NCBI RefSeq assembly: GCF_011299095.1
Contig: NZ_CP049889.1
Span: 1,344,501 to 1,408,500 of the forward strand
Origin: Jeotgalibaca porci
GTDB taxonomy: Bacteria; Bacillota; Bacilli; Lactobacillales; Aerococcaceae
DNA: 64,000 bases
Reading direction: 5' to 3'
The notes below the pieces were generated by a model. It did no database searches and was not told where the DNA came from. It was given only the letters and a program-made list of their open reading frames with translations. A program made the translations under genes and the position numbers. Shown piece after piece: positions 31,581 through 63,470 of the stretch; positions within the stretch are counted from its first letter, which is position 1, and the number at the start of each line of letters is the position of its first letter.

Positions 31581-31686
31581 GTATACTAGTAAGTGTAGAG
31601 GAAACGTAATTTTACCCAGAATATTCATAATTTTTTCAAAATTGTCATTTATACTAAAGGAGAAAAGAAGAGAGAGGAGCACGCAC

Positions 31687-32928
31687 ATGAGCGAGAGATA
31701 TAATAAACAACTAAAGAAACAGTCTGGAATAAAAAATGGGATTGTTGGAGGAATTATCGGTGGCGCAACGGTTGCTTTGTTGGGAACGGGTATTTTATTT
31801 GGTTCCGGTACTTTAGAAATGTCAAAGGACGATGTCGACATGAATAAGCCTGTTGTGACAGAAGAGGCGACAAGCGATTCTGGAACAACCAATGTCAGCC
31901 TAAACATTACGACAGCTACAACAGAAGCAGTGGAAAGTGTCCAAGAAGCCGTCGTGTCCGTTATTAATTTGAAACAGAACGCGGGGAATCCATTCGGGTT
32001 TGTTATTCCACAAACGGAATCCAGTGACGATGATGATCTCGTTACCAATGGAACAGGAAGTGGGGTTATTTACAAAAAAGAGGATGGGACGGCGTATGTC
32101 GTAACCAATAATCACGTTATTAGCGGCGCCGATGCAGTCGAAGTGCTAATGAAGGATGGGACGAAAATAGAAGCAGAGATTGTCGGCGCCGATGTCTGGA
32201 CCGACTTGGCAGTCCTTGCGATTTCGTCAGAACATGTGGATGTTATAGCGGAATTTGGTAATTCAGACAACTTAAATGTCGGTGAACCGGCCATTGCTAT
32301 TGGGTCACCGCTTGGGACAGAATTTGCGACTTCAGTTACGCAAGGGATTGTCTCTGCAACGGAAAGAACAGTCGAAACAGATATTAATGGGGACGGGGTT
32401 GTGGATTGGGATGTCACAGCCATTCAAACGGATGCCTCTATTAACCCGGGAAATTCGGGCGGTGCCTTGATAAATATTGGCGGCCAAGTAATCGGGATTA
32501 ACTCTATGAAGATTGCGTCATCAAATGTCGAAGGAATGGGCTTTGCTATTCCGAGTAACGATGTGGTGCGAATTATCGCTGAATTAGAAGCGAACGGTGA
32601 AGTTATTCGTCCAGTTCTCGGTGTCAGCATGATGGACTTGCAACAAGTTTCTGTTTCCCAACAACGAAACATTTTGAAATTGCCGGAAGACGTTACGACA
32701 GGTGTCGTTGTATCAGATGTTCAAGGCCTTTCTGCAGCAAGTGAAGCAGGGATTGAGCAATATGATGTGATTGTCGGAATGGATGGCGATGAGATTACCA
32801 ATATGGTTGAACTCCGTAAGATTCTTTACCGTCAAGAAGTCGGTGCTACCGTACCAGTCGATCTTTACCGTAATGGTGAACGGATGACGATTTCGGTCAA
32901 ATTGACTGACGGGCAGGAACAACTGTAG
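31687..32928 (+). CDS. htrA: Serine protease HtrA (DegP-like)
   Basis: 413-aa membrane-anchored surface protease and chaperone. An N-terminal helix (about 18-40) is followed by an acidic linker, a trypsin-like domain with catalytic His143 (TNNHVISG), Asp173 (TDLAVL) and Ser257 (NPGNSGGA), and one PDZ domain (about 310-410). All catalytic residues are intact. The chosen ATG follows GAGAGGAG; 15 upstream residues in frame are excluded. Its place after yycJ is the standard wal gene order. Confidence 0.96.
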   Translation: MSERYNKQLKKQSGIKNGIVGGIIGGATVALLGTGILFGSGTLEMSKDDVDMNKPVVTEEATSDSGTTNVSLNITTATTEAVESVQEAVVSVINLKQNAGNPFGFVIPQTESSDDDDLVTNGTGSGVIYKKEDGTAYVVTNNHVISGADAVEVLMKDGTKIEAEIVGADVWTDLAVLAISSEHVDVIAEFGNSDNLNVGEPAIAIGSPLGTEFATSVTQGIVSATERTVETDINGDGVVDWDVTAIQTDASINPGNSGGALINIGGQVIGINSMKIASSNVEGMGFAIPSNDVVRIIAELEANGEVIRPVLGVSMMDLQQVSVSQQRNILKLPEDVTTGVVVSDVQGLSAASEAGIEQYDVIVGMDGDEITNMVELRKILYRQEVGATVPVDLYRNGERMTISVKLTDGQEQL

Positions 32929-39200: not shown

Positions 39201-39977
39201 ATGACATTTGAATCAATTATCTATGAAGTTAAAAATTCATTGGCATACATTACGCTCAATCGCCCGAAAGCTCTAAATGCTCTGAACCAACAATTGTTGA
39301 CAGAACTTAACGAAGCAATCGAGATGATCCAAAATGACGACACAGTGAAAGCTGTAATCGTCACTGGGTCAGGCGAAAAAGCTTTTGCAGCAGGCGCTGA
39401 CATTACTGAATTGAAAGATTTAGACCGTGAAGCAGCTGCGAAGCAATCAGAATTTGGAAATGCAATTTTCTCTAAATTGGGTGCTTTACCACAACCGGTT
39501 ATCGCTGCAGTAAATGGTTTTGCTTTGGGAGGCGGAATGGAACTTGCGTTGGCTTGTGACATGCGCTTTGTTTCTACAAATGCAAAATTAGGCTTGCCGG
39601 AAGTCGGACTGGGAATTATGCCTGGCTACGGTGGAACACAACGCCTGGGCCGCTTAATTGGCTGGGGAAGAGCGAAACAGCTTGTTCTTGCAACAGATAC
39701 AATTGATGCAGAAGAAGCATACCGTTTAGGAATTGCCAACAAAGTGGTTGTTCAAAGCGAGCTAATGACTGAAGTTGAGAAGCTAGCATCTAAAATTATC
39801 AGCAAATCTTCTGCAGGTGTTCAAATGGCTAAGAAAACGATGGAAATCGGAAGTGACTTAACATTAGAAGACGCGTTGGCGCTTGAAGCAAAAAACTTTG
39901 GTTCTTTGTTCGCAAGTCCACACCAAGAAGAAGGAATGGCTGCCTTTTTAGAGAAACGTCCCGCTAACTTTAATTAA
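39201..39977 (+). CDS. Enoyl-CoA hydratase (crotonase)
   Basis: 258-aa hydratase that adds water to trans-2-enoyl-CoA. The oxyanion-hole segments AAGADITEL and NGFALGGG and both catalytic glutamates, Glu114 and Glu134 (20 apart as in rat mitochondrial hydratase), are present. SD AAGGAG. It lies 12 nt after hbd, giving consecutive beta-oxidation (or butyrate-synthesis) steps. Confidence 0.94.
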   Translation: MTFESIIYEVKNSLAYITLNRPKALNALNQQLLTELNEAIEMIQNDDTVKAVIVTGSGEKAFAAGADITELKDLDREAAAKQSEFGNAIFSKLGALPQPVIAAVNGFALGGGMELALACDMRFVSTNAKLGLPEVGLGIMPGYGGTQRLGRLIGWGRAKQLVLATDTIDAEEAYRLGIANKVVVQSELMTEVEKLASKIISKSSAGVQMAKKTMEIGSDLTLEDALALEAKNFGSLFASPHQEEGMAAFLEKRPANFN

Positions 39978-40005
39978 CACAGATTTACCAAGGAGGTAAT
40001 GATTA

Positions 40006-41004
40006 GTGAAACCATTTAAAAGTTATGTAGTGAGAACGAACGAAGAGAATCAAGTTACACACCAAGTTGAAGAAGTAACAGAATCATTTCTAGGTGAAGG
40101 AAATACAACAATTGCTGTTGAATATTCTTCAATCAACTACAAAGATATGTTAGGTCTGCAAACAAAGGGTGGCGTTATCCGTAACTATCCTATGATTCCA
40201 GGGATTGACTTGGCTGGAACGATTATCTCTTCAGAAGATCCTTCATTATCACCAGGAGATCCTGTATTGATAACAGGCTACAAGCTTGGAACAGAGCACA
40301 CGGGCGGATTCAGTGAAGTTGCCCGTGTACCAAGTGAGTGGGTTGTTAAATTACCGGAGAACCTATCTGCTAAAGAAGCAATGATGTATGGAACAGCTGG
40401 ATTTACCGCAGCTCTGTCTATCGCAGCTCTTGAGAAGAACGGCATGAAAGTGGAAGACCAACCAGAAATATTAGTAACAGGTGCTACAGGTGGAGTAGGA
40501 AGCGTTGCGACTCAAATTCTACGTAAGTTAGGATATGAGAACATCACAGCTACTATTCGTAAAGATTACCAAGTTGAAAGTGCTAAAGAATTTGGAGCTA
40601 CTAAAATTTGGAATATCACTGAGAATGAATCAAACGGACGTCCTCTTAACCGTCGCGAATACAAATATGTAGTCGACACGGTAGGCGGCGACTTGACCGC
40701 AGATGTTTTATCAAAAGTAGACGAGTACGGAAGCGTTGCAATCAGTGGAAACGCTGGTGGCGTGAAGTTGAATACAACCGTATTGCCGTTTATCTTACGC
40801 GGCGTTAACCTTTTGGGAATTAACTCGGTCAGCACTGATATGGCTGAACGTGAACAACTGTGGAACAAATTGGCAAACGAATGGAATATTGTCGCTGTTC
40901 TACACCACACAGAAATAGCTCTTCAAGATATACCAGAAACAGCTGCTAAGTTGAAAGATGGACAACATCTTGGCAGAACAATAATAAAAATAAACGGCAC
41001 ATGA
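40006..41004 (+). CDS. YhdH/AcuI-type quinone oxidoreductase
   Basis: 332-aa zinc-free medium-chain dehydrogenase of the YhdH/YhfP family, NADPH-dependent. The family includes acryloyl-CoA reductase AcuI, so reduction of a short 2-enoyl-CoA is a good guess in this operon. Seen: MIPGIDLAGT near residue 60 and NADPH site VTGATGGVGSVA near residue 155. GTG start behind AAGGAGGTAATG. It is the only member of the operon that is not a standard beta-oxidation enzyme. Confidence 0.85.
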   Translation: MKPFKSYVVRTNEENQVTHQVEEVTESFLGEGNTTIAVEYSSINYKDMLGLQTKGGVIRNYPMIPGIDLAGTIISSEDPSLSPGDPVLITGYKLGTEHTGGFSEVARVPSEWVVKLPENLSAKEAMMYGTAGFTAALSIAALEKNGMKVEDQPEILVTGATGGVGSVATQILRKLGYENITATIRKDYQVESAKEFGATKIWNITENESNGRPLNRREYKYVVDTVGGDLTADVLSKVDEYGSVAISGNAGGVKLNTTVLPFILRGVNLLGINSVSTDMAEREQLWNKLANEWNIVAVLHHTEIALQDIPETAAKLKDGQHLGRTIIKINGT

Positions 41005-41020
41005 GTGAAAGGTGAATAGT

Positions 41021-42355
41021 ATGCAATTTGTAAATGAGTATAGACAGAAACTTGTATCTGCAGATGTAGCAGCTAAAGCTGTAAAATCTGGCGATTGGGT
41101 AGATTACGGACAATTTGTTTGTCAAACACAAGTAGTAGATGAAGCATTAGCAAAACGTAAAGATGAACTTCAAGATGTTAAGATTCGTGCAACAACACGT
41201 ACAACACCGCTTGCAGTCGTTCAAGCAGATCCACATCAAGAAGTATTTACTTACAACAACTTCCATTACAGTGGGTATGACCGTAAATTGCAAGACCAAG
41301 GCTCAGCATTCTTTATTCCTATTTTCTATCACGAAAAACCAGGCTATTACAAAAACTTCCTGGACGTAGACGTGGCAATCTTGGCAGTAACGCCAATGGA
41401 TGACTTTGGTTACTTTAACTTTAGTACATCTGTTGCAACAAGCCGTGCGATTGTTGAAAAAGCTAAAATCGTTATCTTAGAAGTGAACCCGAACTTACCG
41501 CGTGTTATGGGTGGTAACAACGAAACGGTTCATATTTCTGAAATTGACTACATTGTAGAAGCAAACTGGGCTGTTCCTGAAATCCCAAATGCATTGCCTT
41601 CTAAAGAAGACGAACAAATCGCTTCACTCATTATCCCAGAAATCAGAAACGGTTCTTGTATTCAACTAGGTATTGGTGGTATGCCAAACGCAGTCGGATC
41701 ATTAATTGCCAAATCAGACTTGAAAGACTTAGGCGTACATACAGAAATGTTTGTAGATGCTTTTGTTGATATGTATGAAGCTGGTAACCTGAACGGAAGC
41801 CAAAAGCAATTGGATAAAGGCAAAATCGTTTATACCTTTGCAATGGGAACAAACAAAACATACGAATTCCTACACAACAACCCTGCAGCAGCAGCATACA
41901 GCGTTGATTATGTAAACGACCCAATGATTATCAGACAACAAGATAACATGGTTGGAATTAACAACTGTATGGAAATCGACCTATATGGTCAAGTAAGTTC
42001 AGAGTCAGTTGGTACGCGTCAAATCTCAGGTACAGGTGGACAAGGAGACTTTACAATCGGTTCATATGAATCTAAAGGCGGTCAATCCTATATCGCGATG
42101 ACTTCTTCTTACGTAGACCGTGCAGGACAACGTCACTCACGTATCAAGAACTTCTTGAGCCAAGGATCAATCGTTACAATCCCACGCTCACTTGTATCAA
42201 ATATCGTTACAGAATACGGTATCGTGAACCTAAAAGGTAAATCCACTTGGGAACGTGCTGAAGGCATTATCTCACTTGCTCACCCGGACTTCCGTGATGA
42301 CCTTATCAAACAAGCAGAACAAATGAATATTTGGAGACGCTCAAACAAACGTTAA
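41021..42355 (+). CDS. Acetyl-CoA hydrolase/transferase family CoA-transferase
   Basis: 444-aa family I CoA-transferase of the 4-hydroxybutyrate / butyryl-CoA:acetate type. It has GIGGMPNAV (217-225), the active-site Glu242 (VHTEMFVDA) that forms the CoA thioester, and the GTGGQGDF motif near residue 335. It would exchange CoA between a short acid and acetate or activate an incoming acid without ATP. Start ATG 6 nt after AAAGGTG. This may replace an acyl-CoA synthetase, which is missing from the operon. Confidence 0.88.
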
Positions 42356-42394
42356 TAACTCACTAATCTTAAACAGAAAAGGAAGTAATTTAAA

Positions 42395-43573
42395 ATGACA
42401 GAAGTAGTAATTGTAGCAGCAAAACGTACAGCTATCGGAAGCTTTGGTGGCGTATTTAAAGATGTATCTGCAGTAGACTTAGGAACAGCAGTTATTAAAG
42501 GTGCTATGGAATCTATTAACCTAGACCCTAAAGAAGTTAAAGAAGTTGTTTTCGGTAACGTTTATAGTGCAGGTCTTAAAGGAAACGTAGCACGTCAAGT
42601 AGCAATCTACGCTGGAATCCCTGAAGAAGCACACGCAACAAGCGTAAACATTCTATGTGGTTCAGGTCTACGTGCTGTAGTAAGTGGTATTCAATCCGTA
42701 TTACTAGGCGACAGCGACGTTGTTGTTGTTGGTGGTACAGAAAGCATGTCTCGTGCAGCTTACGTTCTACCTAACTACCGTTTCGGCGGACGTATGGGCG
42801 ATGACACAATCATCGATACAATGCTTAACGACGGTTTACACGATGCATTCCATGACTACCATATGGGAGTAACAGCAGAAAACATTGTTGAAAAATACAA
42901 CTTCACGCGTGAGCAACAAGATGACTTGGCTGCAGACAGCCAAAACCGTGCTGAAGCAGCAGTTAAATCAGGTCGTTTCAAAGACGAAATCGTTCCTGTA
43001 GCTGTTCCACAAAGACGTGGCGAAGATATTATCGTTGATACAGACGAAGGTCCACGTTTTGGAACAACAAAAGAAACATTGGCTAAACTACGTCCAGTAT
43101 TCAAAAAAGACGGTACTGTTACAGCAGGTAACGCATCTGGAATCAACGACGGTGCAGCAGCATTGATCTTGATGACACGTGAAAAAGCGGAAGAATTAGG
43201 ATTAGAAGTTCTAGCTACAGTTGCTTCTTACGGAATCGGCGGCGTTGACCCACGTATCATGGGTACAGGTCCAATCCCAGCTACTAAGAAAGCATTGGCT
43301 AAAGCGAACATGACTGTTGCTGACCTAGACTTGATCGAATCAAACGAAGCATTTGCTGCACAAGCGTTGAGCGTAATTGAAGAATTAGGTTTCGACCGTT
43401 CAATCACTAACGTTAACGGTGGCGCAATTGCATTAGGTCACCCAGTTGGAGCAAGTGGCGCAAGAATTTTAGTATCTCTTGTAAATGAAATGCAAAAACG
43501 TGACAGCAAAACAGGTCTAGCTACACTATGTGTTGGTGGTGGACAAGGGGTTTCTGTAATCGTTAAACGTTAA
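42395..43573 (+). CDS. Acetyl-CoA acetyltransferase (thiolase)
   Basis: 392-aa thiolase that cleaves 3-ketoacyl-CoA or condenses two acetyl-CoA. Catalytic Cys88 (NILCGSG), His349 ([10 protein letters not shown]) and Cys379 (LCVGGGQG) are intact. SD AAGGAAG. With hbd, crotonase, acyl-CoA dehydrogenase and CoA-transferase it completes the set for turning acetyl-CoA into butyrate or the reverse. Confidence 0.95.
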
Positions 43574-43602
43574 TCTAATCTCTTAATAAGAGCAGGAGTG
43601 TA

Positions 43603-44058
43603 ATGAAAATGAAAGATAACGCTATTTGGCTCGGTGAGTGTGAAGTCGGGGACTCTTATGTCTCCGACACATATGAAGTGACCGAAGAAGAAATTATCGC
43701 CTTTGCGAAGCAATACGACCCGCAATATTTCCATACAGATCCTGAAAAAGCAAAAGATTCCTTTTTCAAGGGATTAGCATCGAGCGGCTGGTTAACAGCC
43801 GCTATTATGATGAAATTGCAAGTTGCTTCTAATCCATTTGGTTTCGATTTAGTTGGAGTGGAAGTAAAACTGGAATGGCCAAGTCCGACAAGAGCAGGCG
43901 ATATTCTTCACATTCGTACCGAAATTAAGGATATCAAGATGTCCCGTTCGAAGCCGAATCAAGGTATTCTAACAGTTGAAACAATCACTAAAAATCAAAA
44001 AGATGAAGTTCGCATGGTTATGCAGAACAAAATACTTGGTTTTACCAGACCAAAATAA
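43603..44058 (+). CDS. MaoC-like hot-dog dehydratase
   Basis: 151-aa single hot-dog protein of the MaoC/(R)-specific enoyl-CoA hydratase family. The active-site pattern YDPQYFHTDPEKA (Asp and His) is present at about 40-52. It would hydrate 2-enoyl-CoA to the (R)-hydroxy form or act on related acyl-CoAs, a second stereochemistry beside crotonase. SD AGGAG; ATG 43603 chosen, though ATG 43609 would give more usual spacing. Confidence 0.85.
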   Translation: MKMKDNAIWLGECEVGDSYVSDTYEVTEEEIIAFAKQYDPQYFHTDPEKAKDSFFKGLASSGWLTAAIMMKLQVASNPFGFDLVGVEVKLEWPSPTRAGDILHIRTEIKDIKMSRSKPNQGILTVETITKNQKDEVRMVMQNKILGFTRPK

Positions 44059-44082
44059 ATTGAATGAAGGCAGGTTATACAA

Positions 44083-45300
44083 TTGACAACACTTACTAAA
44101 AACGAAAAATTATCTCAACTATTTCCTGAAGATTTATTCTTACAAGCAGTAACTTTAACGGACGGCGAAATCGATGTTTTGATGGAGCTTGAAGAAGCAA
44201 TGGAAAAACATTTGCGTCCTGTTCTTGCAGCGCACTCTGAAAAAGGAGAATTTCCTTTTGAAGCATTTTCTAAAGTCGTTGCAGACGTTAAAATGCTATC
44301 TGACGAGCGTCTATTCGCTGACAAGACAGCAGAAAACTACGTACATTCACAATACTACAATACATACTTATACTATGTAATGGCACGTTTTGATGTATCA
44401 ATTGCAACATTTATGGCAGTTCATGCTGGTCTTGGTTACTACACATTCTTATTTGGTGGATCAGACGAGCAAAAAGCAAAATGGTTACCGAAATTCCAAA
44501 GCTTCGATTTACAAACATGTTTTGCATTGACTGAACCAGATCACGGTTCTGATATTGCTGGTGGATTAGCAACTTCTGCTAAGCGCGATGGCGACAAATG
44601 GATCCTAAACGGCGAAAAACGTTGGATCGGTGGCGCTGGTTCAGCAGACCTAATCCCAGTATTTGCACGTGACATTGAAGATAACAAAATCAAATGTTTT
44701 GTTGTTAAAAAAGGTCAAGCAGGTCTACGCGTAGACAAAATCGAAAACAAAATTGGTTTGAGAATGGTTCAAAATGGCCATATCTACCTTGAAGATGTAG
44801 AAGTGCTGGAATCAGATCGTTTGCCACACATCAACGGTTTCCGTGATGTAGCGAACATTCTTTACGCAACACGTGCGATTATCGGCGTATTGGCTGCTGG
44901 AAACTCTGGTGGTGCTTACCGCGCTGCTCTATCTTACACATCACAACGTGTACAATTTGGTAAAAAATTGACGAACTTCCAATTGGTTCAAGAAAAATTA
45001 GCACGTATCGTGTCTAACTTGCAATCGCAATTGGCAGTCAACGCACGTGTCGCTGACCTACAAACAGAAGGTCAATACGACGAAGTTCGTTCTTCTATTG
45101 CAAAAATGCAAAACTCTAAATTAATGCGTGAAAATGCTGCCCTAGCACGTGAAATATGTGGTGGGAACGGTATTGTATATGAGTACGATGTTGCGCGTTT
45201 CTTTACAGACGCAGAAGCAATCTACACATACGAAGGAACACACGAAGTTAACTCACTTGTAATCGGACGCGCTATTACAGGCGAAAGTGCATTTGTATAA
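44083..45300 (+). CDS. Acyl-CoA dehydrogenase (second copy)
   Basis: 405-aa paralogue of the gene at 37085: the same opening (PEDL..LT.GE), the same LTEPDHGSDIAGGLATSAKR block and catalytic Glu384 in TYEGTHE. The closest matches, at DNA level too, are around the GSDIAGG and NGEKRWIGG segments, so the two arose by duplication and now bracket the operon. They differ in the substrate-lining middle part. TTG start with AAGGCAGG upstream. A strong terminator ends the operon. Confidence 0.9.
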   Translation: MTTLTKNEKLSQLFPEDLFLQAVTLTDGEIDVLMELEEAMEKHLRPVLAAHSEKGEFPFEAFSKVVADVKMLSDERLFADKTAENYVHSQYYNTYLYYVMARFDVSIATFMAVHAGLGYYTFLFGGSDEQKAKWLPKFQSFDLQTCFALTEPDHGSDIAGGLATSAKRDGDKWILNGEKRWIGGAGSADLIPVFARDIEDNKIKCFVVKKGQAGLRVDKIENKIGLRMVQNGHIYLEDVEVLESDRLPHINGFRDVANILYATRAIIGVLAAGNSGGAYRAALSYTSQRVQFGKKLTNFQLVQEKLARIVSNLQSQLAVNARVADLQTEGQYDEVRSSIAKMQNSKLMRENAALAREICGGNGIVYEYDVARFFTDAEAIYTYEGTHEVNSLVIGRAITGESAFV

Positions 45301-45315
45301 CCGGTAATGAAGCTA

Positions 45316-45357
45316 AAGACACTTTCGAGACATGAATCTCGAAAGTGTCTTCTTTTT
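45316..45357 (+). terminator. Terminator of the acyl-CoA operon
   Basis: Perfect 15-bp stem AAGACACTTTCGAGA / TCTCGAAAGTGTCTT, then CTTTTT. Confidence 0.95.
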
Positions 45358-45437
45358 AAGAATTAAAGATAGTAATAAACCTAAAGTTTCGGTAAGATGA
45401 AAGTAACAACAATTCAAATAGTAAAGGCATGATAAGA

Positions 45438-46340
45438 ATGGATATCCAACAATTATATTATTTTATAAACATCGTTGAATGCGACTACAACTTATCCTTG
45501 GCAGCTAAAAAAATTCATATCAGCCAACCTGCGCTCAGTCAGTTTATTTCAAATTTTGAAAATGAAAAAGACGTACAATTATTTAATCGTAAACAAGGAC
45601 GACTAAACAGTCTAACCCGAGCTGGTGAGATGATTTACCAGTACGCACTTCAAATCGTAAAACAACATGAAGAAATGCAAGAAATGGTTCGTGTTGAAGG
45701 TTTGAAGCAAAAAGGAACGATTCGTATCGGATTACCATCCTTGATTTTACGTGTCTATTTTTCTGACTATTTCCCAAATTTGGTTCTCAATAATCCCAAT
45801 GTGCATTTGGAAATTATTGAAAACGGAAGTAACGACTTGCGTAAAAAGCTGATTAATGGTGAAATTGATATTGCAATACTTATTGAACCAACCAGTTTAG
45901 ATACGAAGAACTATGAGCAGCATGTCATCCAGATAGATGAAATGGTTGCCTTCATGGATCCTAAAAATCCACTTGCTCAAAACGAAAAACTGGAATGGCA
46001 AGATCTAAAAGGCTACCCCATTGCGACATTTAATTCGACATTCATGACGAATCATTTGGTTACTCAGAAATTAGAAACGCATTCGACGGCGCATCAAATT
46101 CAATTCACGTCTTCTTCATGGGATTACCTGATTGAAACGACACGTAATAAAGATATCGTTGCTATTTTACCACGTCCAGTAGAAAAGTTTTTCCAGAGTG
46201 AACAGACTGATTTTCGACATTTCCGCGACTATATTCCTTTTAACTTTCATTTGTGCAGATCGTTTAAGAAGAAATATACATCAGTGGAAAACTTTGTATT
46301 CGATGATTTAATCAACTATTTTTATCAGCCGGTTGAATAA
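45438..46340 (+). CDS. LysR-type regulator
   Basis: 300-aa LysR regulator with helix-turn-helix LAAKKIHISQPALSQFIS (about 22-39) and an effector domain. It sits between the acyl-CoA operon and an acyl-CoA dehydrogenase-like gene, so it is the natural candidate to control one or both. ATG 45438 chosen because of the distance to AAAGG; ATG 45429 is nearly on top of the SD. The downstream gene starts 33 nt after the stop, so the two are probably one transcript. Confidence 0.87.
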   Translation: MDIQQLYYFINIVECDYNLSLAAKKIHISQPALSQFISNFENEKDVQLFNRKQGRLNSLTRAGEMIYQYALQIVKQHEEMQEMVRVEGLKQKGTIRIGLPSLILRVYFSDYFPNLVLNNPNVHLEIIENGSNDLRKKLINGEIDIAILIEPTSLDTKNYEQHVIQIDEMVAFMDPKNPLAQNEKLEWQDLKGYPIATFNSTFMTNHLVTQKLETHSTAHQIQFTSSSWDYLIETTRNKDIVAILPRPVEKFFQSEQTDFRHFRDYIPFNFHLCRSFKKKYTSVENFVFDDLINYFYQPVE

Positions 46341-46373
46341 AGTATAAAAAATTTGTAAAGGAAGGTTTGCTTT

Positions 46374-47501
46374 ATGGCAGCTTCAATGCGACTCAATAAT
46401 CCGGAACTCCAACGTAAATTGGAAGAGGTAGAGAACTATACAGAAGATACAATAGCAAGTATCGCGCGGTACTATGATGAAACTGAAGAATTTCCGCATG
46501 AACCGATGGAATACTTTTTCCAAAATGACTTTTTTTCGCTACTGACCTCCAATTCTGAAGAAGACTTGACGGTCTTTTTAGAGACGATTCGGATTGTTTC
46601 AAGTAAATTCGCCGCATTGGGCAGTATTTTGCTGACGCAAGGTTTCTACGCTGTTGTACCTCTGCATCAGTTCGGAACGGACGAGCAAAAGGCTATATAC
46701 TTACCTGACTTAATCAGTGGAACAAGCTATGGTGGGTTTGGTTTATCCGAGGAGAACGATTCCGGCGATCCAACCTACATTCATACCCTGGCGGTTGAAA
46801 CGCCCTTTGGATGGGTTATTAATGGAAATAAGAAGTATATTTCCAATGCGCCACTTGCAAGCGTTTTGCTAGTCGCAGCCCGTACCAAGAGTTTGGACGG
46901 CAGTGACGGGACCGGTATCTTTATTGTTGAAACAGATAGAAAAGGGTTAACTGTAACTGAGCCAATGGAGAAGACAGGTATCACATCGCTCCAAGTCGCT
47001 TCCGTTCAATTGCAACAAATTGAAGTCGCACACGATGCGTTATTGGGAAATACTCTTGAAGGGGTAGACCAAGTTACCTTTACTATGAATCTCATGAAAT
47101 TGTCGGTTGCGATGCAGGCAGTCGGTATCGCGCAAGGAGCATTTGCCAAAGGCCTTGAGCATATGAGTGTGGTCCGTAAGTTTGGAAACCGTCTTATTGA
47201 TAATCAGTCGACCCAAGAAAAAATGGCGGATATGAAGACGAGTATTTATTCTGCTGAAGCTTTCGTTCGTATGGTTATGACGGATACGCAGAATTCAATA
47301 GAAGTGGCGATGGCGAAGTTATTAACAGCCAATATTGCGTTGGAGGTAACGGAATCAATTATTCAACTGACAGGCGGTTATGGTTTCATGAAAGATAGCG
47401 ATATTGAACGTTATATTCGTGACGCAAATGTGACATCCATTTACGGGGGTTCCTCCAGATCGCAACGACGAATGATTACAGAGCCGTGGGTAAACAGCTA
47501 A
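46374..47501 (+). CDS. Acyl-CoA dehydrogenase homologue without catalytic Glu
   Basis: 375-aa protein with the acyl-CoA dehydrogenase fold: GFGLSEENDSGDP in place of the usual T-E-P/GSD motif, ISNAP, MSVVRKFGNRLIDNQ and YIRDANVTSIYGGSS at the end. The catalytic Glu expected in the IYEGT motif is Gly358. The alternative Glu of the isovaleryl/long-chain type (helix G, about residue 241) is also not Glu (MNLMKLSVA). It is therefore likely a non-dehydrogenase member or uses another base. It is co-transcribed with the LysR gene. Distant from the two operon copies in sequence. Confidence 0.8.
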   Translation: MAASMRLNNPELQRKLEEVENYTEDTIASIARYYDETEEFPHEPMEYFFQNDFFSLLTSNSEEDLTVFLETIRIVSSKFAALGSILLTQGFYAVVPLHQFGTDEQKAIYLPDLISGTSYGGFGLSEENDSGDPTYIHTLAVETPFGWVINGNKKYISNAPLASVLLVAARTKSLDGSDGTGIFIVETDRKGLTVTEPMEKTGITSLQVASVQLQQIEVAHDALLGNTLEGVDQVTFTMNLMKLSVAMQAVGIAQGAFAKGLEHMSVVRKFGNRLIDNQSTQEKMADMKTSIYSAEAFVRMVMTDTQNSIEVAMAKLLTANIALEVTESIIQLTGGYGFMKDSDIERYIRDANVTSIYGGSSRSQRRMITEPWVNS

Positions 47502-50927: not shown

Positions 50928-52373
50928 GTGAATATAAAAATTGTTCGTTATGTGGTTGGACGCTTATTGCAAGTCGAAGCGCTCCTTTTAATTCTTCCTT
51001 TAATCGTGAGTTTCATATATGAAGAAGCAATCATCTATAAAATAAGCTTCTTCGCAGTCATTTTATTTTTGTTGATTGTGGGGCAAGTATTGGCATTTAA
51101 AATGCCAGATAATAAGCGCCTCACTGCCCGGGAAGGGTTTGTCATTGTAGCCCTGTCCTGGGTTTTATTCTCATTTTTTGGAGGTCTGCCCTTTGTTATT
51201 AATGGAGATATCCCGTCACTTGTGGATGCTTTTTTTGAAACGAGCAGTGGGTTTACGACGACGGGTTCCAGTATTTTAACGGATGTTGAAATACTGGCAC
51301 ATTCCAGTTTATTCTGGCGTAGTTTTACCCATTTAGTGGGTGGTATGGGAATTTTGGTATTTGCCTTGGCAATATTACCGAAAATCGATTCCCAATCCGT
51401 TAATATCATGAAGGCCGAAACACCCGGTCCCACATTTGGGAAATTGGTTTCGAAATTGTCCACATCTGCACGTATTCTCTATACTATTTATCTTGCCATG
51501 ACAGTTGTAGTTGTAGCACTTCTTTATTTCGGTGGTATGAACCTCTTTGATTCCTTGCTCCATTCATTTGGTGTAGCGGGAACAGGTGGATTTGGCATTC
51601 GAAACGGTAGCATAGCCCCTTACGAAACGCCTTATTTCGAATGGGTTATTGGCATAGGTATGCTCGTCTTCGGGATCAATTTTAATCTCATTTATCTCTT
51701 TTTACTCGGGAAATTCAAGCAAGTGTGGGAAAGCGAAGAATTGAAATGGTACATTTTAATCGTTACAGGTGCGGTTGGTTTGATTTGTATGAATTTATTC
51801 AGTACCTATCACTCTTTTTCAGTACTTATCCGGGATGTATTTTTTACGGTTTCTTCTATTATTACAACGACGGGTTTTTCAACGGCTGACTTTGGTAAAT
51901 GGCCACTCTTTTCCCAAACCATACTATTGTTGTTGATGTTTGTAGGAGCTTGTGCGGGTTCAACAGCAGGGGGATTGAAAGTATCTCGGGTAGTTGTTTA
52001 CGCCAAAATATTTGTTGCAGAAGTGAAAAGAATGGCTAATCCTAGCCGAATCGTTACCGTTTTGTACGATAAAAAACCTTTAAATAAAAACACCAAACAC
52101 AGTGTGGCAAACTACTTGATTATTTATTTCCTTCTTTTTGCAGGAATGCTCGTATTGCTAACATTGGATGTACCGGACTTCCTATCCGCATTTAGCGCAG
52201 TTGCTGCTACATTCAATAATATCGGACCAGCACTTGGGGTAGTAGGACCAGCCCATAGCTTTGCAGAATTAACAGATTTCTCTAAAATTATTCTATCCTT
52301 TGGTATGTTAGCGGGAAGATTAGAAATATTTCCAATATTGATTTTATTTTCGCCACGTACTTGGAAAAAATAA
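50928..52373 (+). CDS. trkH: Trk K+ uptake channel TrkH
   Basis: 481-aa membrane K+ channel of the Trk/Ktr/HKT superfamily. Four repeated M1-P-M2 units; selectivity-filter-like segments TSSGFTTTGSS, FGVAGTGGFG, TTTGFSTADFG and FNNIGPALG can be seen. The long 12-helix form fits TrkH rather than KtrB. GTG start. The trkAH operon ends in a terminator just before the DnaA-box region, facing the Ktr genes. Confidence 0.93.
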   Translation: MNIKIVRYVVGRLLQVEALLLILPLIVSFIYEEAIIYKISFFAVILFLLIVGQVLAFKMPDNKRLTAREGFVIVALSWVLFSFFGGLPFVINGDIPSLVDAFFETSSGFTTTGSSILTDVEILAHSSLFWRSFTHLVGGMGILVFALAILPKIDSQSVNIMKAETPGPTFGKLVSKLSTSARILYTIYLAMTVVVVALLYFGGMNLFDSLLHSFGVAGTGGFGIRNGSIAPYETPYFEWVIGIGMLVFGINFNLIYLFLLGKFKQVWESEELKWYILIVTGAVGLICMNLFSTYHSFSVLIRDVFFTVSSIITTTGFSTADFGKWPLFSQTILLLLMFVGACAGSTAGGLKVSRVVVYAKIFVAEVKRMANPSRIVTVLYDKKPLNKNTKHSVANYLIIYFLLFAGMLVLLTLDVPDFLSAFSAVAATFNNIGPALGVVGPAHSFAELTDFSKIILSFGMLAGRLEIFPILILFSPRTWKK

Positions 52374-52379
52374 CAGAGA

Positions 52380-52410
52380 AAAAGACACTATTATGGTGTC
52401 TTTTTTCTTT
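52380..52410 (+). terminator. Terminator of trkAH
   Basis: AAAAGACAC / GGTGTCTTTTTT with a short loop. Confidence 0.88.
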
Positions 52411-52412
52411 TT

Positions 52413-52760
52413 TGTGGATAAATATGAGGAAAAGTATTTAGCCCATGTGCGTAATCGGTTTAAACCCATCTAATCAGGTGTTTATCTCTCGAATAGTTAT
52501 CCACAGTTTCCCACAACGGATGTGCATAACCGTTGTCCATTTGTGAAAAAACGATGTCAAACGTTATATTATAAGTATAAAGTTTGTGAAAATAAGCTGG
52601 GCATAACTCGGAGATAACGAAAGAAACAAATAATTTCAGAAAACAACATCTTGATTAAAAAACGAAACCTCAACTAAATATGGTGGCGAACATGTGTACA
52701 TGTGGATAAGTATTGTGCATAACTTGTGGGGGAAGGTGGATAACACCAGAGTTATGCACA
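52413..52760. other. Cluster of DnaA boxes between convergent genes
   Basis: Three perfect boxes (TTATCCACA or its complement) at 52413-52421, 52497-52505 and 52701-52709. Three boxes of the form TTATGCACA lie at 52521-52529, 52714-52722 and 52752-52760, and one with a single mismatch at 52735-52743. The DNA is AT-rich and has no gene. It lies between the ends of trkH and ktrA. Gene direction on both sides argues against oriC itself; a DnaA-titrating or regulatory cluster is more likely. Confidence 0.75.
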
Positions 52761-52761
52761 T

Positions 52762-52804
52762 TAAAAAAGCCAGTTATGAACGTTATCAGTCCATAACTGG
52801 CTTT
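52762..52804 (-). terminator. Terminator of the ktrB-ktrA unit
   Basis: Minus-strand stem AAAGCCAGTTATG / CATAACTGGCTTT followed by TTT. Confidence 0.85.
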
Positions 52805-52810
52805 CCAAAA

Positions 52811-53479
52811 TTAATTGAGTTGATTCAAATAATCCACTTGTTCGAATTTATCCGATTCCGTTATACCGACCAATACAAAATCTTTGGCAATCGGTTCATT
52901 CGGGTCAAATGAAACCACGAGCTTGCCCAATTTATTGCGGCGCATACCAATAATGTTAATGTCGTATTTACGACGCAAATCGAGTTGGATCAAACTCTTT
53001 CCAATCCAACGTTCGGGCGGATAGAATTCCACAACTGAAGTGGAGTCGTCCAAACGAACAATATCTTCAATATTCGTACGCAATAGATTCTTGGCAACAC
53101 GCACGCCAGATTCTTTTTCAGGCTGAACCACAATGGTGGAACCAATTTCTTCTAATACTTCGCGGTAGTTTTTATTTTTTGCTTTTGCAATAATATGCTT
53201 AATACCAAGCTTTTTACAGTTCAAAACGCCAAGCACACTTGCCTCTAAATACGTCCCCGTTGCGATAACCACTGCATCACAGTCTTCCAATCCAATCGTA
53301 CGTAGCAACTCGATATCAGTAAAATCACCGACAACACCTTTAGCAATATATGGTTCAATCCGATTGACGTTTTCTTCGTATTTATCAACTGCGATTACAT
53401 CACTACCGAACTCCGACAACGTTTTGGCAATAGTAGATCCGAAGATACCTAGCCCCAGGATACCAATTAATTTACTCAT
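52811..53479 (-). CDS. ktrA: Ktr K+ uptake regulatory subunit KtrA
   Basis: 222-aa RCK protein: N-terminal nucleotide-binding domain with GLGIFGS (9-15) and an acidic strand end VDKYEEN, then an RCK_C domain (about 137-222). It forms an octameric ring on KtrB and gates it with ATP/ADP; in Firmicutes the RCK_C domain also binds c-di-AMP, which closes the channel. SD TTAGGAGAG. It starts 14 nt after ktrB, in the same transcript. Confidence 0.93.
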   Translation of the reverse strand: MSKLIGILGLGIFGSTIAKTLSEFGSDVIAVDKYEENVNRIEPYIAKGVVGDFTDIELLRTIGLEDCDAVVIATGTYLEASVLGVLNCKKLGIKHIIAKAKNKNYREVLEEIGSTIVVQPEKESGVRVAKNLLRTNIEDIVRLDDSTSVVEFYPPERWIGKSLIQLDLRRKYDINIIGMRRNKLGKLVVSFDPNEPIAKDFVLVGITESDKFEQVDYLNQLN

Positions 53480-53493: not shown

Positions 53494-54885
53494 CTAACCA
53501 ATAATTATGCTGCCTTTTGTATAGGCAATATCTTTTACTGCTTTATTTTTTCTGATTAAACTGTCCACTAACGTAATCGGTCCGATTCTTCCAGCGAACA
53601 TCAAGAACATATCCACAATCAGACTCGGTGTATCCAAAGAAGCCGTGACATTAGCAGAAACGCCAACCGTTGCTAAAGCAGATACAGCTTCGAACAATAA
53701 GAACAACGGATTTGTTCCCGGATTAAATAGTAATAACAAGCTCGTACCCACCGTCAATGTGGTTAACAAAGCAACAAAAATAATTAAAGCTTGTCTAACA
53801 ACGTTTTTCGGAATGGTATGATTAAATAAATTGACATTACTTTGTCCCCGTATTTCGTTGTAAATCATGATGAATACAATCGCAAAGGTCGTCGTTTTCA
53901 TACCACCGGCAGTACCACCAGGAGAACCACCAATGAACATAGTAACGACACTCATGAACATGGAGATTGGAGTAATCGTACTGTAATCCAATGAAGCAAA
54001 TCCAGCAGTACGCATGGTTACCGTATGGAAGAAGCTGGCAAGCACTTTATCCCCGAAAGAAAAAGTCCCGATTGAAGCATCGTTTGTATATTCAAATATT
54101 AAGAACAAAAGGGTACCGCCCACTAACAATCCTATTGTCATAAGGATTGCCAAGCGCGTATGCAATGTTAATGAACGAAGACGACGCATTAATGGCGGTT
54201 TTTGTTTCATTTTTGCAGTAGCGTGGAACAAGTTGGTAACATCGAACCACACAGAGAAACCGATTCCGCCTAAAATGATTAACGCTGCGATAACCAGATT
54301 GATCCCCGGATTATGAGCGTATTCAATCAAACTGCTATTACCCATTGTATCGAAGCCTGCATTACAAAAAGCAGAGATTGAAAGGAACATCGAAATAAAC
54401 AAACCTTTTGCAAAACCAAATACTGGAACAAAATAGAAACTCAGTAATACCATTCCTGTTCCTTCTATTATAGCTGTATATTTCATAATTGTTCCAATAT
54501 AGGTTCGAAAATCTTTGGCGTCCCCTCGATTAATTCCTTCTTGAACAGCTAGTTTATTACGAAAGCCAATTTTATTTTTTGAAAGTTGTGTTATAAAATA
54601 GGCGATTAAAGTCATCAGCCCCAGACCACCGACTTGGATGAGCAGCATACAGATAATTTGCCCAAACAGTGTATAAGAGTCGGCAATCGATTCTGTGAAC
54701 AAGCCGGTCACACAGACCATCGATACGGCTGAAAAGAGATTATCAATATAAGTGGCATTCGAAGTAGATAATTGACTGATTGGTAAAGATAGTAAGAGTG
54801 ATCCGATAAAAATAACACTCGCAAAACTGGAAGCAATTTTTTGAGAAGTCGTCCAGCTTCCTATTTTATTTAGCAAAATGAACAT
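53494..54885 (-). CDS. ktrB: Ktr K+ channel subunit KtrB (first copy)
   Basis: 463-aa membrane subunit with eight main helices in four channel repeats and the typical C-terminal end FAGRIGPITLVDSLIRK. Filter segments include VCVTGLFTE, SISAFCNAGFD, TVTMRTAGFAS and SALATVGVSAN, each with the central Gly. SD AAGAAAGGAA. The partner gene ktrA follows directly. A second KtrB-type gene lies upstream of it. Confidence 0.92.
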   Translation of the reverse strand: MFILLNKIGSWTTSQKIASSFASVIFIGSLLLSLPISQLSTSNATYIDNLFSAVSMVCVTGLFTESIADSYTLFGQIICMLLIQVGGLGLMTLIAYFITQLSKNKIGFRNKLAVQEGINRGDAKDFRTYIGTIMKYTAIIEGTGMVLLSFYFVPVFGFAKGLFISMFLSISAFCNAGFDTMGNSSLIEYAHNPGINLVIAALIILGGIGFSVWFDVTNLFHATAKMKQKPPLMRRLRSLTLHTRLAILMTIGLLVGGTLLFLIFEYTNDASIGTFSFGDKVLASFFHTVTMRTAGFASLDYSTITPISMFMSVVTMFIGGSPGGTAGGMKTTTFAIVFIMIYNEIRGQSNVNLFNHTIPKNVVRQALIIFVALLTTLTVGTSLLLLFNPGTNPLFLLFEAVSALATVGVSANVTASLDTPSLIVDMFLMFAGRIGPITLVDSLIRKNKAVKDIAYTKGSIIIG

Positions 54886-54996
54886 TTCCTTTCTTCCTTA
54901 TCATGCTTTAGGATAGACGTATTTTAATACGAATGGCCTGAAAAAGATAGCGAAAAAAAAGTAGAAAAACTAACTAAATTTTGGTGGTAAATATTC

Positions 54997-56376
54997 TTAT
55001 CCCAGGATGACTTTTCCATCCACAAATTGAATATTCTTCGTTTCTTTATCTTTTCGCGCCAGTGTTTCCGCCATCGTAATCGGACCGATTCTTCCCACAA
55101 ACATCAAAATCATTAAGATAACCCGGCTTAACACACCAAGCGTAGGGGTCAACCGTGCTGACATCCCAACAGTCGTAATCGCGGAAACCGATTCAAACAT
55201 TAAGACAATAAAGTCAACTTTCGGATTCAATAACGATAACAATCCTGTTCCACCAATAAAGGTAGCTAGGAATATCAAGAAAATAACAACCGCATTACGC
55301 ACTAAGCTAACCGGTAACGTATAGTTCCAGATGTTTACATTTTTCTGTCCCTTGCTTTCATTTATAATGAGTAAGACAACCATTGCGAACGTGGTTGTTT
55401 TAATCCCACCGGCTGTACTACCCGGCGAACCACCGACGAACATCGATAAAATAAAAGAAAACAGTGTAAAAGAGTGCACTTCAGTAAAATCGATTGTTGT
55501 CATACCGGCTGTTCGCATCGTGATAGTCTGAAAGGAACTGGCCAACAACTTCTGGCCGAAAGTGAAATCGCCAATCGTATTCGGATTGTTAAATTCGACC
55601 AATAAAAAGGTCAGTGTTCCTGAAATGATTAAAAAGAAACTGACGGAAATGGCCAACCGCGAATGCAAGCTTAACTCCCGGAAGAAAAAACGGATGTGTT
55701 TTTTGTTAGTCCGTTGTGACCATCTCTTGATCAACTTCGTGACATCGAACCAGACGTGGAAGCCAATCCCGCCTAAAAAAATCAAAACGGAAATAACAAT
55801 GTTCACTAACGGATCATGCACATAAGCCGCTAAAGAAACCGCGCCAAGTGTGTCAAATCCGCCATTCGTAAAGCCGGAAACCGCGAGGTAGAGGGCGGTG
55901 AAAAGCCCTCGACCCCAACCAAATTCCGGTACGAACCGAAACGACAACAGGATAAATCCCAAGCTTTCAAAAATAAGGACATATCTTAAAATCAACCGCA
56001 TAAATGACCGGAAGTCCGTCGCATCCTCACGGTTAATACTGGCTTGTACTACGAGTTTGTTCTTTAAACTCATCTTTCTTCCCATAAAAGAAACGGCACT
56101 GGCCACGATGGTCATAATTCCTAAACCACCCACCTGCATCAATATGAGCGATATAATCTGCCCAAACAGCGAATACGTCTGTGCAACGGGATGGATGACT
56201 AACCCCGTCACCGTCACTAATGACACCGTATGGAAAAAGTGATCGAACAGCGTGGCTTCCGAACCCGGCGCCTGACTGATTGGTAGAATAAGGAAAATAA
56301 ACCCAATCAGAATCATTACAAGAAAACTGGCACTAATTTTTAAAGATGTATGCCACCCATCTATCCATTTACGCAA
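54997..56376 (-). CDS. Ktr K+ channel subunit KtrB-like (second copy)
   Basis: 459-aa paralogue of the KtrB at 53494, with filter segments VTVTGLVIH, SGFTNGGFD, TITMRTAGMTT and ITTVGMSAR and the same ending VGRIGPITMAETLARKD. A TTG start at 56376 is chosen since AGGGAG lies 8 nt upstream; the in-frame extension to 56406 lacks an SD. It has no ktrA of its own, so it may share the KtrA at 52811 or use another. 111 nt separate it from the first ktrB, so the three may be one transcript. Confidence 0.88.
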   Translation of the reverse strand: MRKWIDGWHTSLKISASFLVMILIGFIFLILPISQAPGSEATLFDHFFHTVSLVTVTGLVIHPVAQTYSLFGQIISLILMQVGGLGIMTIVASAVSFMGRKMSLKNKLVVQASINREDATDFRSFMRLILRYVLIFESLGFILLSFRFVPEFGWGRGLFTALYLAVSGFTNGGFDTLGAVSLAAYVHDPLVNIVISVLIFLGGIGFHVWFDVTKLIKRWSQRTNKKHIRFFFRELSLHSRLAISVSFFLIISGTLTFLLVEFNNPNTIGDFTFGQKLLASSFQTITMRTAGMTTIDFTEVHSFTLFSFILSMFVGGSPGSTAGGIKTTTFAMVVLLIINESKGQKNVNIWNYTLPVSLVRNAVVIFLIFLATFIGGTGLLSLLNPKVDFIVLMFESVSAITTVGMSARLTPTLGVLSRVILMILMFVGRIGPITMAETLARKDKETKNIQFVDGKVILG

Positions 56377-56410
56377 GGTCCTATCTCCCTTCGATTTGTA
56401 TTGCAAGAAT

Positions 56411-56461: not shown

Positions 56462-56941
56462 ATGAATATAAAAATTATAACAGTTGGAAAGTTAAAGGAA
56501 AAATATTTGAAGCAAGGCATCGCTGAATATGCCAAACGTTTAGGCAGCTACTGCAAAATGGAAATCATCGAGGTCAACGACGAAAAAGCACCCGAAAATT
56601 TGAGTGACAAAGAAATGGAAATGATCAAAGACAAAGAAGGCGAACGCATCCTCGCCAAAGTCAGCGATCAAAGCTATGTTTTCGCCCTGGCCATTAACGG
56701 CAAACAATACGATTCCGTTGACTTCGCCAAAAAAATCGAAAATCTTGGTATCACCGGAAAAAGTGATATTACCTTCATTATCGGTGGTTCGCTCGGATTA
56801 AGCAAGCAAGTGCTCAAACGCGCCAACGAGGAAATCTCGTTTGGTAAGTTGACGTTCCCGCATCAGTTGATGCGGTTGGTTTTGGTGGAGCAAGTTTATC
56901 GGGCGTTTCGGATTATTAATGGGCATGCTTATCATAAATAA
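56462..56941 (+). CDS. rlmH: 23S rRNA pseudouridine-1915 N3-methyltransferase RlmH
   Basis: 159-aa SPOUT-fold methyltransferase that methylates pseudouridine 1915 of 23S rRNA in helix 69 on the complete 70S ribosome. The trefoil-knot segments [10 protein letters not shown] and the C-terminal [20 protein letters not shown] with GHAYHK at the end are classic. The last codons are the integration site of SCC cassettes in staphylococci (orfX), and here too the 3' end is repeated 2.7 kb downstream. Confidence 0.97.
56924..56939 (+). repeat. att-like direct repeat 1 (rlmH 3' end)
   Basis: CATGCTTATCATAAAT, the last codons of rlmH (reading HAYHK), identical to 59662-59677 and similar to 63455-63470. 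It resembles the staphylococcal SCC attachment core TATCA(T/C)AAATGA at the same place in the same gene. Confidence 0.8.
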
Positions 56942-61599: not shown

Positions 61600-61797
61600 G
61601 TGTCCATTATACCAATAAACAAGACCATATGCAACCATATGGAAGACCGACATAACATGATATACATCGATTATGTCATCTACCATGTGCGAGACGAGTT
61701 TTACAAGATGGTTTCGTTCATCACGGGTTTGAAAGCCCGTGTTTTCTCTCAACGAATCAGAAAAAGTACGGCTGAAAAGAAGTCATTCCTAAGGAGA

Positions 61798-61809
61798 GAG
61801 TGGTATAAT
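61798..61809 (+). promoter_or_regulatory. Extended -10 promoter of the DUF2254 gene
   Basis: AGTGGTATAAT: perfect -10 with TGG before it; no good -35. 37 nt before the start. Confidence 0.55.
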
Positions 61810-61846
61810 AGAGAAAATAATTCTATCAAGGGAGGGGTTATAGAAC

Positions 61847-63166
61847 ATGGTCAAGGCATTTGGCTTATTTTTTGAAGATAAACGTATTTGGCTTATTCTA
61901 GGAGGGAGCGTGCTCTTTTCTTTCATTTTAGCGATTGGTGTTATCTTGCTCGACACCAGAATGATAAATGTGGTGGACTATTTCCCGACTGTTTTTCTAA
62001 CGAGCGTCAATCTGGCCAAATCAATCTTGAGCCTGCTAGCGGGTTCCCTTTTTTCAGTGGCAACCTTCACGTTTGGGACGATGTTATCGGTCATTTCGTT
62101 CTACTCATCTAATTTCAGTCCCCGGACTGTTGAGAATTTTCTCTTACAGAAAACATCTATGCAAACTTTGGGGATTTTTCTTGGTGGTTTTATTTATTGT
62201 CTTTCCTCTTTGTTTTTTATGCGCAATTCAGAAGATGAATATTTGGTTGTTTCGGCCTCCATTGCCTTATTGTACGCCCTTGCCTGCGTTTTTTATTTTA
62301 CGAAGTTCGTTTATAATGTGGCAACATCCGTACAATTGAACCATCTTGTGACTAAATTGTACAAGGAGGCCGAGTCAGTTGCGGATGAAACGATTGAATA
62401 CTTTCAAGAAATGCCTTTGTTGGATCATCTTCCTCAAATAGACACGCTACACATCTTCACAGTAAAGGCTAACGAGAGTGGTTATGTTGAATATATTAAT
62501 TTTAATCGACTAGTTGAACTGAGCAAGGAATTCAAAGGCACCATAGTGCTACATCTAAGAATAGGAGAGTTTATTTCCGCAAATCAGCCGCTAGTCGATT
62601 TATACACTAACCGAAAAGTTAAAGATGAATCACAGCTCCAAGCGGCAATAAACCGCACCCTAACTTATGAAGAAAAACCTTCTTCTATGTACGATCCAAA
62701 TTTTGCTCGAGCTAAATTGATTGAAGTAGCTCTGAGGGCGGTTTCGCCAGGCATAAATGATCCTAATACCGCCATTTATATCTTAAACTACAAGGCTTTG
62801 TTGGATTCAAAATTTGCCAGTATACCAGGAAGGTTTGTGGTGATGGGCGAAGACACTGATGAGACATTTTCTTCGGGAGGTAACGTGATTTATGATTTCA
62901 ATAATTTTCCAAAAGACTTATATGAAAGTTATTGGCAATTAATTCACTATATGAAGCAAGATATTTCTGGAGTGGTGGCACTGTTTGACTCTTTGTTGAC
63001 AGTTGCTTATTCTGCACATCCGAAGAAGCTAAACTATATTAAGGATTACAGTAATTATCTGTTTAATCTAACGAGTCCCAATTTTACGGAAAGACTAGAT
63101 ATTCAAAATATCGAGGAACGCCAACAACGTATTCTAGGGATTAACCATCCTGAGCTAGAGGAATGA
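61847..63166 (+). CDS. DUF2254 membrane protein
   Basis: 439-aa protein with four N-terminal membrane helices (about 16-36, 55-80, 105-125 and 130-155) and a long cytosolic part. The DUF2254 pattern includes FTFGTMLSVISFYSSNFSPR near residues 75-94 and the cytosolic RAVSPGINDPNTA near residue 300. Function unknown. SD AGGGAGGGG 9 nt before the ATG. Its GC content is like the host, unlike the IS beside it. It lies between the second and third att-like copies. Confidence 0.88.
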   Translation: MVKAFGLFFEDKRIWLILGGSVLFSFILAIGVILLDTRMINVVDYFPTVFLTSVNLAKSILSLLAGSLFSVATFTFGTMLSVISFYSSNFSPRTVENFLLQKTSMQTLGIFLGGFIYCLSSLFFMRNSEDEYLVVSASIALLYALACVFYFTKFVYNVATSVQLNHLVTKLYKEAESVADETIEYFQEMPLLDHLPQIDTLHIFTVKANESGYVEYINFNRLVELSKEFKGTIVLHLRIGEFISANQPLVDLYTNRKVKDESQLQAAINRTLTYEEKPSSMYDPNFARAKLIEVALRAVSPGINDPNTAIYILNYKALLDSKFASIPGRFVVMGEDTDETFSSGGNVIYDFNNFPKDLYESYWQLIHYMKQDISGVVALFDSLLTVAYSAHPKKLNYIKDYSNYLFNLTSPNFTERLDIQNIEERQQRILGINHPELEE

Positions 63167-63210
63167 GCTTGAAACTGAAAACTATCTGTGTTATTTTTCG
63201 CTGAAAGGTT

Positions 63211-63216
63211 TATAAT
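63211..63216 (+). promoter_or_regulatory. -10 element before the tRNA
   Basis: TATAAT 28 nt before the tRNA 5' end; the -35 is weak. Confidence 0.45.
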
Positions 63217-63244
63217 ATTCTCTTTAGTTCAAAACACAAAGAAT

Positions 63245-63317
63245 GCCGGTTTATTTCAGTTGGTAGAGCATCGCACTCGTAACGCGGGGGTCGTAGGTTC
63301 GATCCCTATAGCCGGTA
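63245..63317 (+). tRNA. tRNA-Thr (anticodon CGT), partly unpaired
   Basis: 73-nt cloverleaf: acceptor GCCGGTT / AGCCGGT (two wobbles), D arm with AGTTGGTA loop, anticodon loop CTCGTAA (CGT, reads ACG), variable loop, T arm GTAGG-TTCGATC-CCTAT, discriminator A. Defects: a T10-C25 mismatch in the D stem, an A31-C39 mismatch at the anticodon stem and TCA instead of CCA at the 3' end. It may be a decaying or horizontally moved copy. Followed by a terminator. Confidence 0.8.
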
Positions 63318-63331
63318 TCACATTAATTTAG

Positions 63332-63371
63332 AAAGTACATCAAGGTTTAACCCCTGAGATGTACTTTTTTC
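63332..63371 (+). terminator. Terminator of the tRNA gene
   Basis: AAAGTACATC / GATGTACTTT followed by TTT; 15 nt after the tRNA. Confidence 0.88.
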
Positions 63372-63454
63372 TGGCTAATATTTCCCAAAACCAAACCGTC
63401 ACACATCCGTCGGTAAACTTGCTGGAAAAGAAGGTGTCGCATTACAATGGAACA

Positions 63455-63470
63455 CGCGTATCACAAATGA
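63455..63470 (+). repeat. att-like repeat 3
   Basis: CGCGTATCACAAATGA. It contains the GCGTATCACAAAT of the staphylococcal SCC attachment site and reads EHAYHK-stop in the rlmH-like frame. It is not identical to copies 1 and 2 (several substitutions). Confidence 0.55.

Follow-up and report, generated by a model that had tools for sequence, protein, structure and literature searches.

The window, a 64,000-nucleotide stretch of Jeotgalibaca porci (contig NZ_CP049889.1), contains a group of DnaA boxes in the gap between trkH and a ktrA-like gene, which converge on it (Table 1). An earlier note, made from the sequence alone, had described three perfect and four near-perfect boxes in about 350 bp of this gap, and our motif scan placed all seven exactly where they had been reported: three copies of TTATCCACA, three of TTATGCACA, and one of TTATCCACC, at 52413-52760. 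We took TTATNCACA as the accepted DnaA-box consensus, which is also that given for B. subtilis DnaA (PMC4447404). Six of the seven boxes fit this consensus, and TTATCCACC is a near match.

Table 1. Features of the DnaA-box cluster and its surroundings (window positions)
Feature	Positions	Strand	Basis
htrA, ancestral left neighbor of the cluster (walK-yycJ-htrA order)	31642..32928	+	gene order in relatives
trkH, left convergent neighbor	50928..52373	+	ORF and protein matches
Intergenic DnaA-box cluster region, trkH/ktrA convergent gap	52374..52810	.	scan and shuffles
Terminator-like hairpin of trkH, bidirectional pattern	52378..52406	+	terminator scan
DnaA box TTATCCACA	52413..52421	-	motif scan
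DnaA box TTATCCACA	52497..52505	+	motif scan
DnaA box TTATGCACA	52521..52529	-	motif scan
Best-conserved block GGCGAACATGTGTACATGTGGATAA-GTAT-TGTGCATAACTTGTG	52685..52728	+	alignment with relatives
DnaA box TTATCCACA, tandem pair member 1 (conserved, 13-bp step)	52701..52709	-	scan and alignment
DnaA box TTATGCACA, tandem pair member 2 (conserved)	52714..52722	-	scan and alignment
Near-perfect box TTATCCACC, 21 bp past preceding box	52735..52743	-	motif scan
DnaA box TTATGCACA	52752..52760	+	motif scan
Terminator-like hairpin of ktrA, long loop	52767..52804	-	by eye; not called by scan
ktrA-like TrkA-domain gene, right convergent neighbor	52811..53479	-	ORF and protein matches
Two ktrB/TrkH-family genes; with ktrA, separate cluster from rlmH	53494..56406	-	ORF and protein matches
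rlmH (yydA/orfX), ancestral right neighbor of the cluster	56462..56941	+	protein match

The 438-bp gap holds six TTATNCACA matches, compared with a mean of 0.043 and a maximum of two in 2000 dinucleotide shuffles of the same gap. Over the whole window, boxes with at most one mismatch are barely above chance (23 versus 18.3 expected); thus, the striking feature is their clustering rather than their number. The genome contains 111 TTATNCACA sites, and among the 100 that were listed no other group reaches six (TTATCCACA sites were listed in full). The other groups among these 100 are oriC, with five boxes upstream of dnaA and two after it, and a set of three boxes 10 kb from dnaA. With six TTATNCACA and one near match packed into 348 bp at 204 kb from dnaA, the locus is a Bacillus-type DnaA-box cluster outside oriC, a kind of locus already known from Bacillus. 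The set of three near dnaA is located downstream of that gene and follows an ssb-like gene (L032 17892-18075; G000 C1:1202392-1202575), and two congeners (G003 and G005) have pairs of TTATCCACA at a similar distance from dnaA.

The earlier note had argued that the cluster is not the origin and had named dnaA and dnaN just outside the window, together with a GC-skew minimum at 52.5 kb, as what would make it oriC. We found dnaA at contig position 1192542 on the forward strand, to the left of the cluster (1396913-1397260), a distance equal to 8.9% of the 2.298-Mb contig. The dnaA locus has a dnaA-dnaN-recF-gyrBA type order (gene names by eye); the two oriC boxes after dnaA lie between dnaA and dnaN, and the same gap contains a DnaA-trio on the other strand (run CTACTACTACTACTA, TAG x5). 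In the window, GC skew stays positive between 2 kb and 52 kb and is so once more from 56 kb onward; in between, it only dips locally where the ktr genes lie on the minus strand, and it does not switch at the cluster. With dnaA on the left and a positive skew over almost the whole window, the replication fork enters from the left, as had been proposed. A second or cryptic origin was considered, as several high-affinity boxes within 350 bp resemble oriC. However, the cluster has no DnaA-trio, no adjacent dnaA or dnaN, and no skew switch, and a complete oriC lies elsewhere. We therefore rejected this reading, which we regard as barely conceivable.

Comparison of the gap with Rfam gave two matches only, both so far under the gathering scores that an RNA element was ruled out. 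The gap contains no credible small ORF, promoter-like sites occur at near the chance number, and both annotated neighbors end at the cluster. The locus gave no indication of a checkpoint gene like sda. Farther to the left, a block of fatty-acid oxidation-type genes (35417-47501) lies between htrA and trkA; by eye, it encodes acyl-CoA dehydrogenases, a hydroxyacyl-CoA dehydrogenase, an enoyl-CoA hydratase, a thiolase, and a CoA transferase. In the congener G005, htrA is only ~3.5 kb from trkA.

We searched five congeners for the cluster and aligned the six that include the window's genome (G000). All six carry 6-9 boxes per cluster (at most one mismatch), and none shows decay of a detached cluster, that is, one separated from rlmH by other genes. 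The order trkH-cluster-ktrA-ktrB-rlmH is the same in G003 and G005. The cluster lies between trkH and a lacI-like gene in G001, between an ABC transporter and a lacI-like gene in G004 (these names by eye), and between htrA and ktrA in G002 and in G016, which belongs to another genus of the family. In Pisciglobus halotolerans (G036), from another family, it occupies the htrA-rlmH gap with no gene between. The distance from dnaA is 160-240 kb within the genus and G016; the cluster is on the dnaN side in G000, G001, G004, and G005, and G002 and G016 have it on the opposite side.

The alignment indicates that the boxes form an alignable element: columns with a box in at least three of the six congeners have a mean identity of 83%, compared with 52% for the rest of the gap. 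The best block within the genus reads CGAACATGTGTACATGTGGATAACTTTTGTGGATAACCTGTG, and that just before rlmH in Pisciglobus reads GCAACCTGTGGACATGTGTATAACTTTTGTGGATAACTTGTG; the window's block (Table 1) is common to five congeners and the region directly upstream of rlmH in Pisciglobus. A 23-bp tandem, TGTGGATAACTTTTGTGGATAAC, is exact in the detached clusters of G001 and G005; among clusters attached to rlmH, it is exact in G066 and has one mismatch in G036.

We considered trkH as the partner of the cluster and rejected it: relatives (L008-L030) have trkH without boxes, and G002, G004, G016, and G036 have boxes without an adjacent trkH. Gene order points instead to the htrA-rlmH neighborhood. 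In five family members (G006, G182, G030, G033, and G023), rlmH directly follows a cluster of 4-10 boxes (at most one mismatch). In the window's genus and in G009, G010, G012, G013, G019, G020, G025, and G016, ktrA, with or without ktrB, lies on the opposite strand between the cluster and rlmH, leaving the cluster in the htrA-ktrA gap. Genus g9 holds both states, attached in G182 and detached in G013. Detachment seems to have happened independently in G166, of a distant family, where a peroxiredoxin-like gene separates the cluster from rlmH. Convergent genes flank each of the detached clusters examined, and their identity varies (trkH/ktrA, trkH/lacI-like, ABC transporter/lacI-like, htrA/ktrA, and yyzF-like/peroxiredoxin-like). 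These orders indicate that, in the host family, an insertion of antisense ktrA-ktrB genes parted the cluster from rlmH and that about nine genera keep the cluster. Since their ancestry is shared, the nine genera represent one or few insertion events with long retention, not nine events. The cluster is lacking at the htrA/rlmH place in G007, G008, G011, G017, G022, G024, G194, and G207, in some cases after rearrangement, and is thus dispensable at least in family genera without it, such as those of G007, G008, and G022. These absences are what one would expect if the cluster were chance or inherited noise without function. However, the shuffles refute the chance version, the boxes are conserved in a diverged gap, and the arrangement recurs across the class (below), making noise highly improbable.

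To survey the Bacilli, we looked for RlmH in 121 genomes from across the class, located it in 116, and read the surroundings of 80. The 500 bp before the rlmH start contain 159 TTATNCACA in these 80 genomes (1.99 each), compared with 0-0.14 per genome in other 500-bp bins between -8 kb and +6 kb of rlmH. Within 600 bp upstream of rlmH there are 161 TTATNCACA, compared with 3.6 in shuffles, and 45 of the 80 genomes have at least two, compared with 0.08 expected in shuffles; as the genomes are related, these counts are of non-independent events. In 15 of the 32 families, at least half of the genomes sampled have boxes, and f12, f15, and f29 are among the families without any TTATNCACA in these 600 bp. 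In many Bacilli, tandem boxes precede rlmH by ~50-60 bp, the expected place of a promoter. The commonest same-strand box pairs in the class are spaced by 21, 13, and 12 bp. With at most five mismatches, TGTGGATAACTTTTGTGGATAAC occurs in 25 of 80 rlmH-upstream regions versus one of 232 control stretches. Since three of eight dnaA loci also come within four or five mismatches, the motif is not unique to the rlmH locus; 13-bp same-strand pairs are absent from the oriC of relatives. A fixed distance from oriC was ruled out as a rule by the class-wide range of ~30 kb to 404 kb. No paper combining "DnaA box" with either rlmH or orfX was returned by our literature search, and neither the class-wide conservation at rlmH nor the detached form was found in the literature searched. 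Okumura et al. 2012, the key paper on the Bacillus clusters, could itself treat conservation within that genus.

Along its entire length, the window's RlmH matches PDB 1to0 ("UPF0247 protein yyda"; E 1.7e-65), indicating that YydA is the B. subtilis RlmH, and also matches the S. aureus protein SA0023. In vitro, the region upstream of yydA and downstream of yyzF ranks among the eight regions of B. subtilis that DnaA binds most strongly; it has seven sites, and its apparent Kd for ATP-DnaA is 0.16 uM (PMC4447404). YyzF-like small proteins precede rlmH in G077, G132, G166, and G110 (by eye and position). Because RlmH matches YydA, clusters lie upstream of rlmH across the Bacilli, and the family holds intermediate gene orders, the window's cluster appears to share its locus with the B. 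subtilis yydA/rlmH cluster described in PMC4447404. The earlier note had likened it to the Bacillus clusters; the likeness is stronger than was claimed, as the two would derive from one locus. They share a DnaA-box cluster with several high-affinity boxes, the yyzF/rlmH neighborhood, and a position outside oriC. They differ in that the window's cluster has three antisense ktr genes between itself and rlmH, has convergent flanks, and lies 204 kb from oriC in a 2.3-Mb genome.

The region of rlmH has features of its own. An SCC-like att core (GCTTATCATAA / GCGTATCACAA) occurs in three direct copies (56927, 59665, and 63456), the first of them at the rlmH 3' end and the other two downstream; these copies bound two cassette-like segments. 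The first carries a glycosyltransferase and a rifampin ADP-ribosyltransferase (Arr) family gene, and the second an IS200/IS605 element and a DUF2254 gene. Positions 61756-63468 are 99.2% identical over 1.7 kb to an rlmH-adjacent stretch of G025 (L296), another genus of the family, although the RlmH of G025 is only 55% identical to the window's. As the match also ends at the third att-like core, recent transfer is suggested. Second full or partial rlmH copies occur in the relatives G003 (C45:49359-49631), G004 (C1:745440-745889), and G185 (C1:1770083-1770556). Such copies would be expected of SCC-like cassettes able to carry or duplicate ends of rlmH.

We considered whether the cluster is a DnaA-responsive element for transcription control, originally of rlmH (or yyzF-rlmH), which in the window is a remnant or controls a nearby gene or small RNA. 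The promoter-like place of the tandem boxes in many Bacilli fits such a role, and DnaA appears to repress yyzF-yydD in B. subtilis (PMC4447404, PMC8203912); clusters attached to rlmH probably do affect its expression. In the window, however, rlmH is 3.7 kb from the cluster with no DnaA boxes in the 700 bp upstream of it, and because three antisense genes intervene and the flanks converge, the cluster cannot easily act directly at the rlmH promoter. Nor do the neighboring gene ends, the Rfam and ORF results, or the near-chance number of promoter-like sites point to another target. Boxes that served only rlmH should decay once separated from it; instead, they are the conserved columns of the gap and have been retained in about nine genera, so the cluster outlives its link to the rlmH promoter. 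We thus consider the transcription-control explanation unlikely: a purely transcriptional role is less likely in the window and may be an added one where the cluster adjoins rlmH.

Conservation of the detached cluster speaks for binding of DnaA rather than for gene regulation; the role would be in titration and the timing of initiation, as with the Bacillus clusters. We consider it likely that the window's cluster is a non-origin, Bacillus-type DnaA-binding locus, descended from the htrA(-yyzF)/rlmH gap locus of many Bacilli, with a putative role in limiting early re-initiation. What the sequence provides for this reading is the box cluster, its distance from dnaA, the position and tandem block in common with rlmH-linked clusters, and its retention after separation by the ktr genes. 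DnaA would bind several of the boxes cooperatively. As the locus is at ~9% of the chromosome from oriC, it would be duplicated soon after each initiation; the doubled sites would take up free DnaA and help to prevent early re-initiation. In B. subtilis, deleting six clusters together caused early initiation, which was partly relieved when one cluster was put back (PMC5295017, PMC13220808), making a limit on free DnaA the best-supported reading. Single Bacillus clusters have weak effects, and one review sees no significant role for them (PMC5295017). The earlier note had offered a titrating or a checkpoint cluster; given the conserved boxes, titration is the best inference for this organism.

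The cluster might instead set the nucleotide state of DnaA, as a platform like datA or DARS on which boxes spaced by 8/13/21 bp hold a head-to-tail DnaA array. The recurrence of tandem spacing and direction across the class, the commonest pair spacings, and the lack of 13-bp same-strand pairs in the oriC of relatives agree with this idea. E. coli datA is likewise kept close to oriC (PMC4585315) and, like the window's cluster, is a non-coding, non-origin group of boxes, proposed to exert negative control on initiation. However, datA promotes ATP hydrolysis and needs IHF, which B. subtilis is reported to lack (PMC13220808), B. subtilis has no known regulator of the nucleotide state of DnaA (PMC5295017), and the distance from oriC varies between groups across the range given above. 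E. coli DARS1 and DARS2 are also small groups of DnaA boxes outside oriC, but they regenerate ATP-DnaA, with IHF/Fis at DARS2. We regard a nucleotide-state platform as rather improbable. Box clusters near oriC in Streptomyces, another phylum, are mentioned in PMC4585315 as reported to repress untimely initiation.

Whether Gram-positive DnaA-box clusters control replication or the genes that adjoin them is unsettled. At B. subtilis yydA, the two roles are hard to separate because the boxes lie upstream of a gene. The host family contains natural examples of boxes that were parted from rlmH yet kept, making the question directly testable. We tentatively suggest, at somewhat less than even confidence, that the old, Bacilli-wide rlmH locus with its recurring head-to-tail box array is a chromosome-encoded brake on initiation, the Gram-positive functional counterpart of datA, and that selection keeps the cluster even after its detachment from rlmH. 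For the yydA cluster in particular, and for that cluster only, recurrence in ~15 sampled families suggests that it is ancient.
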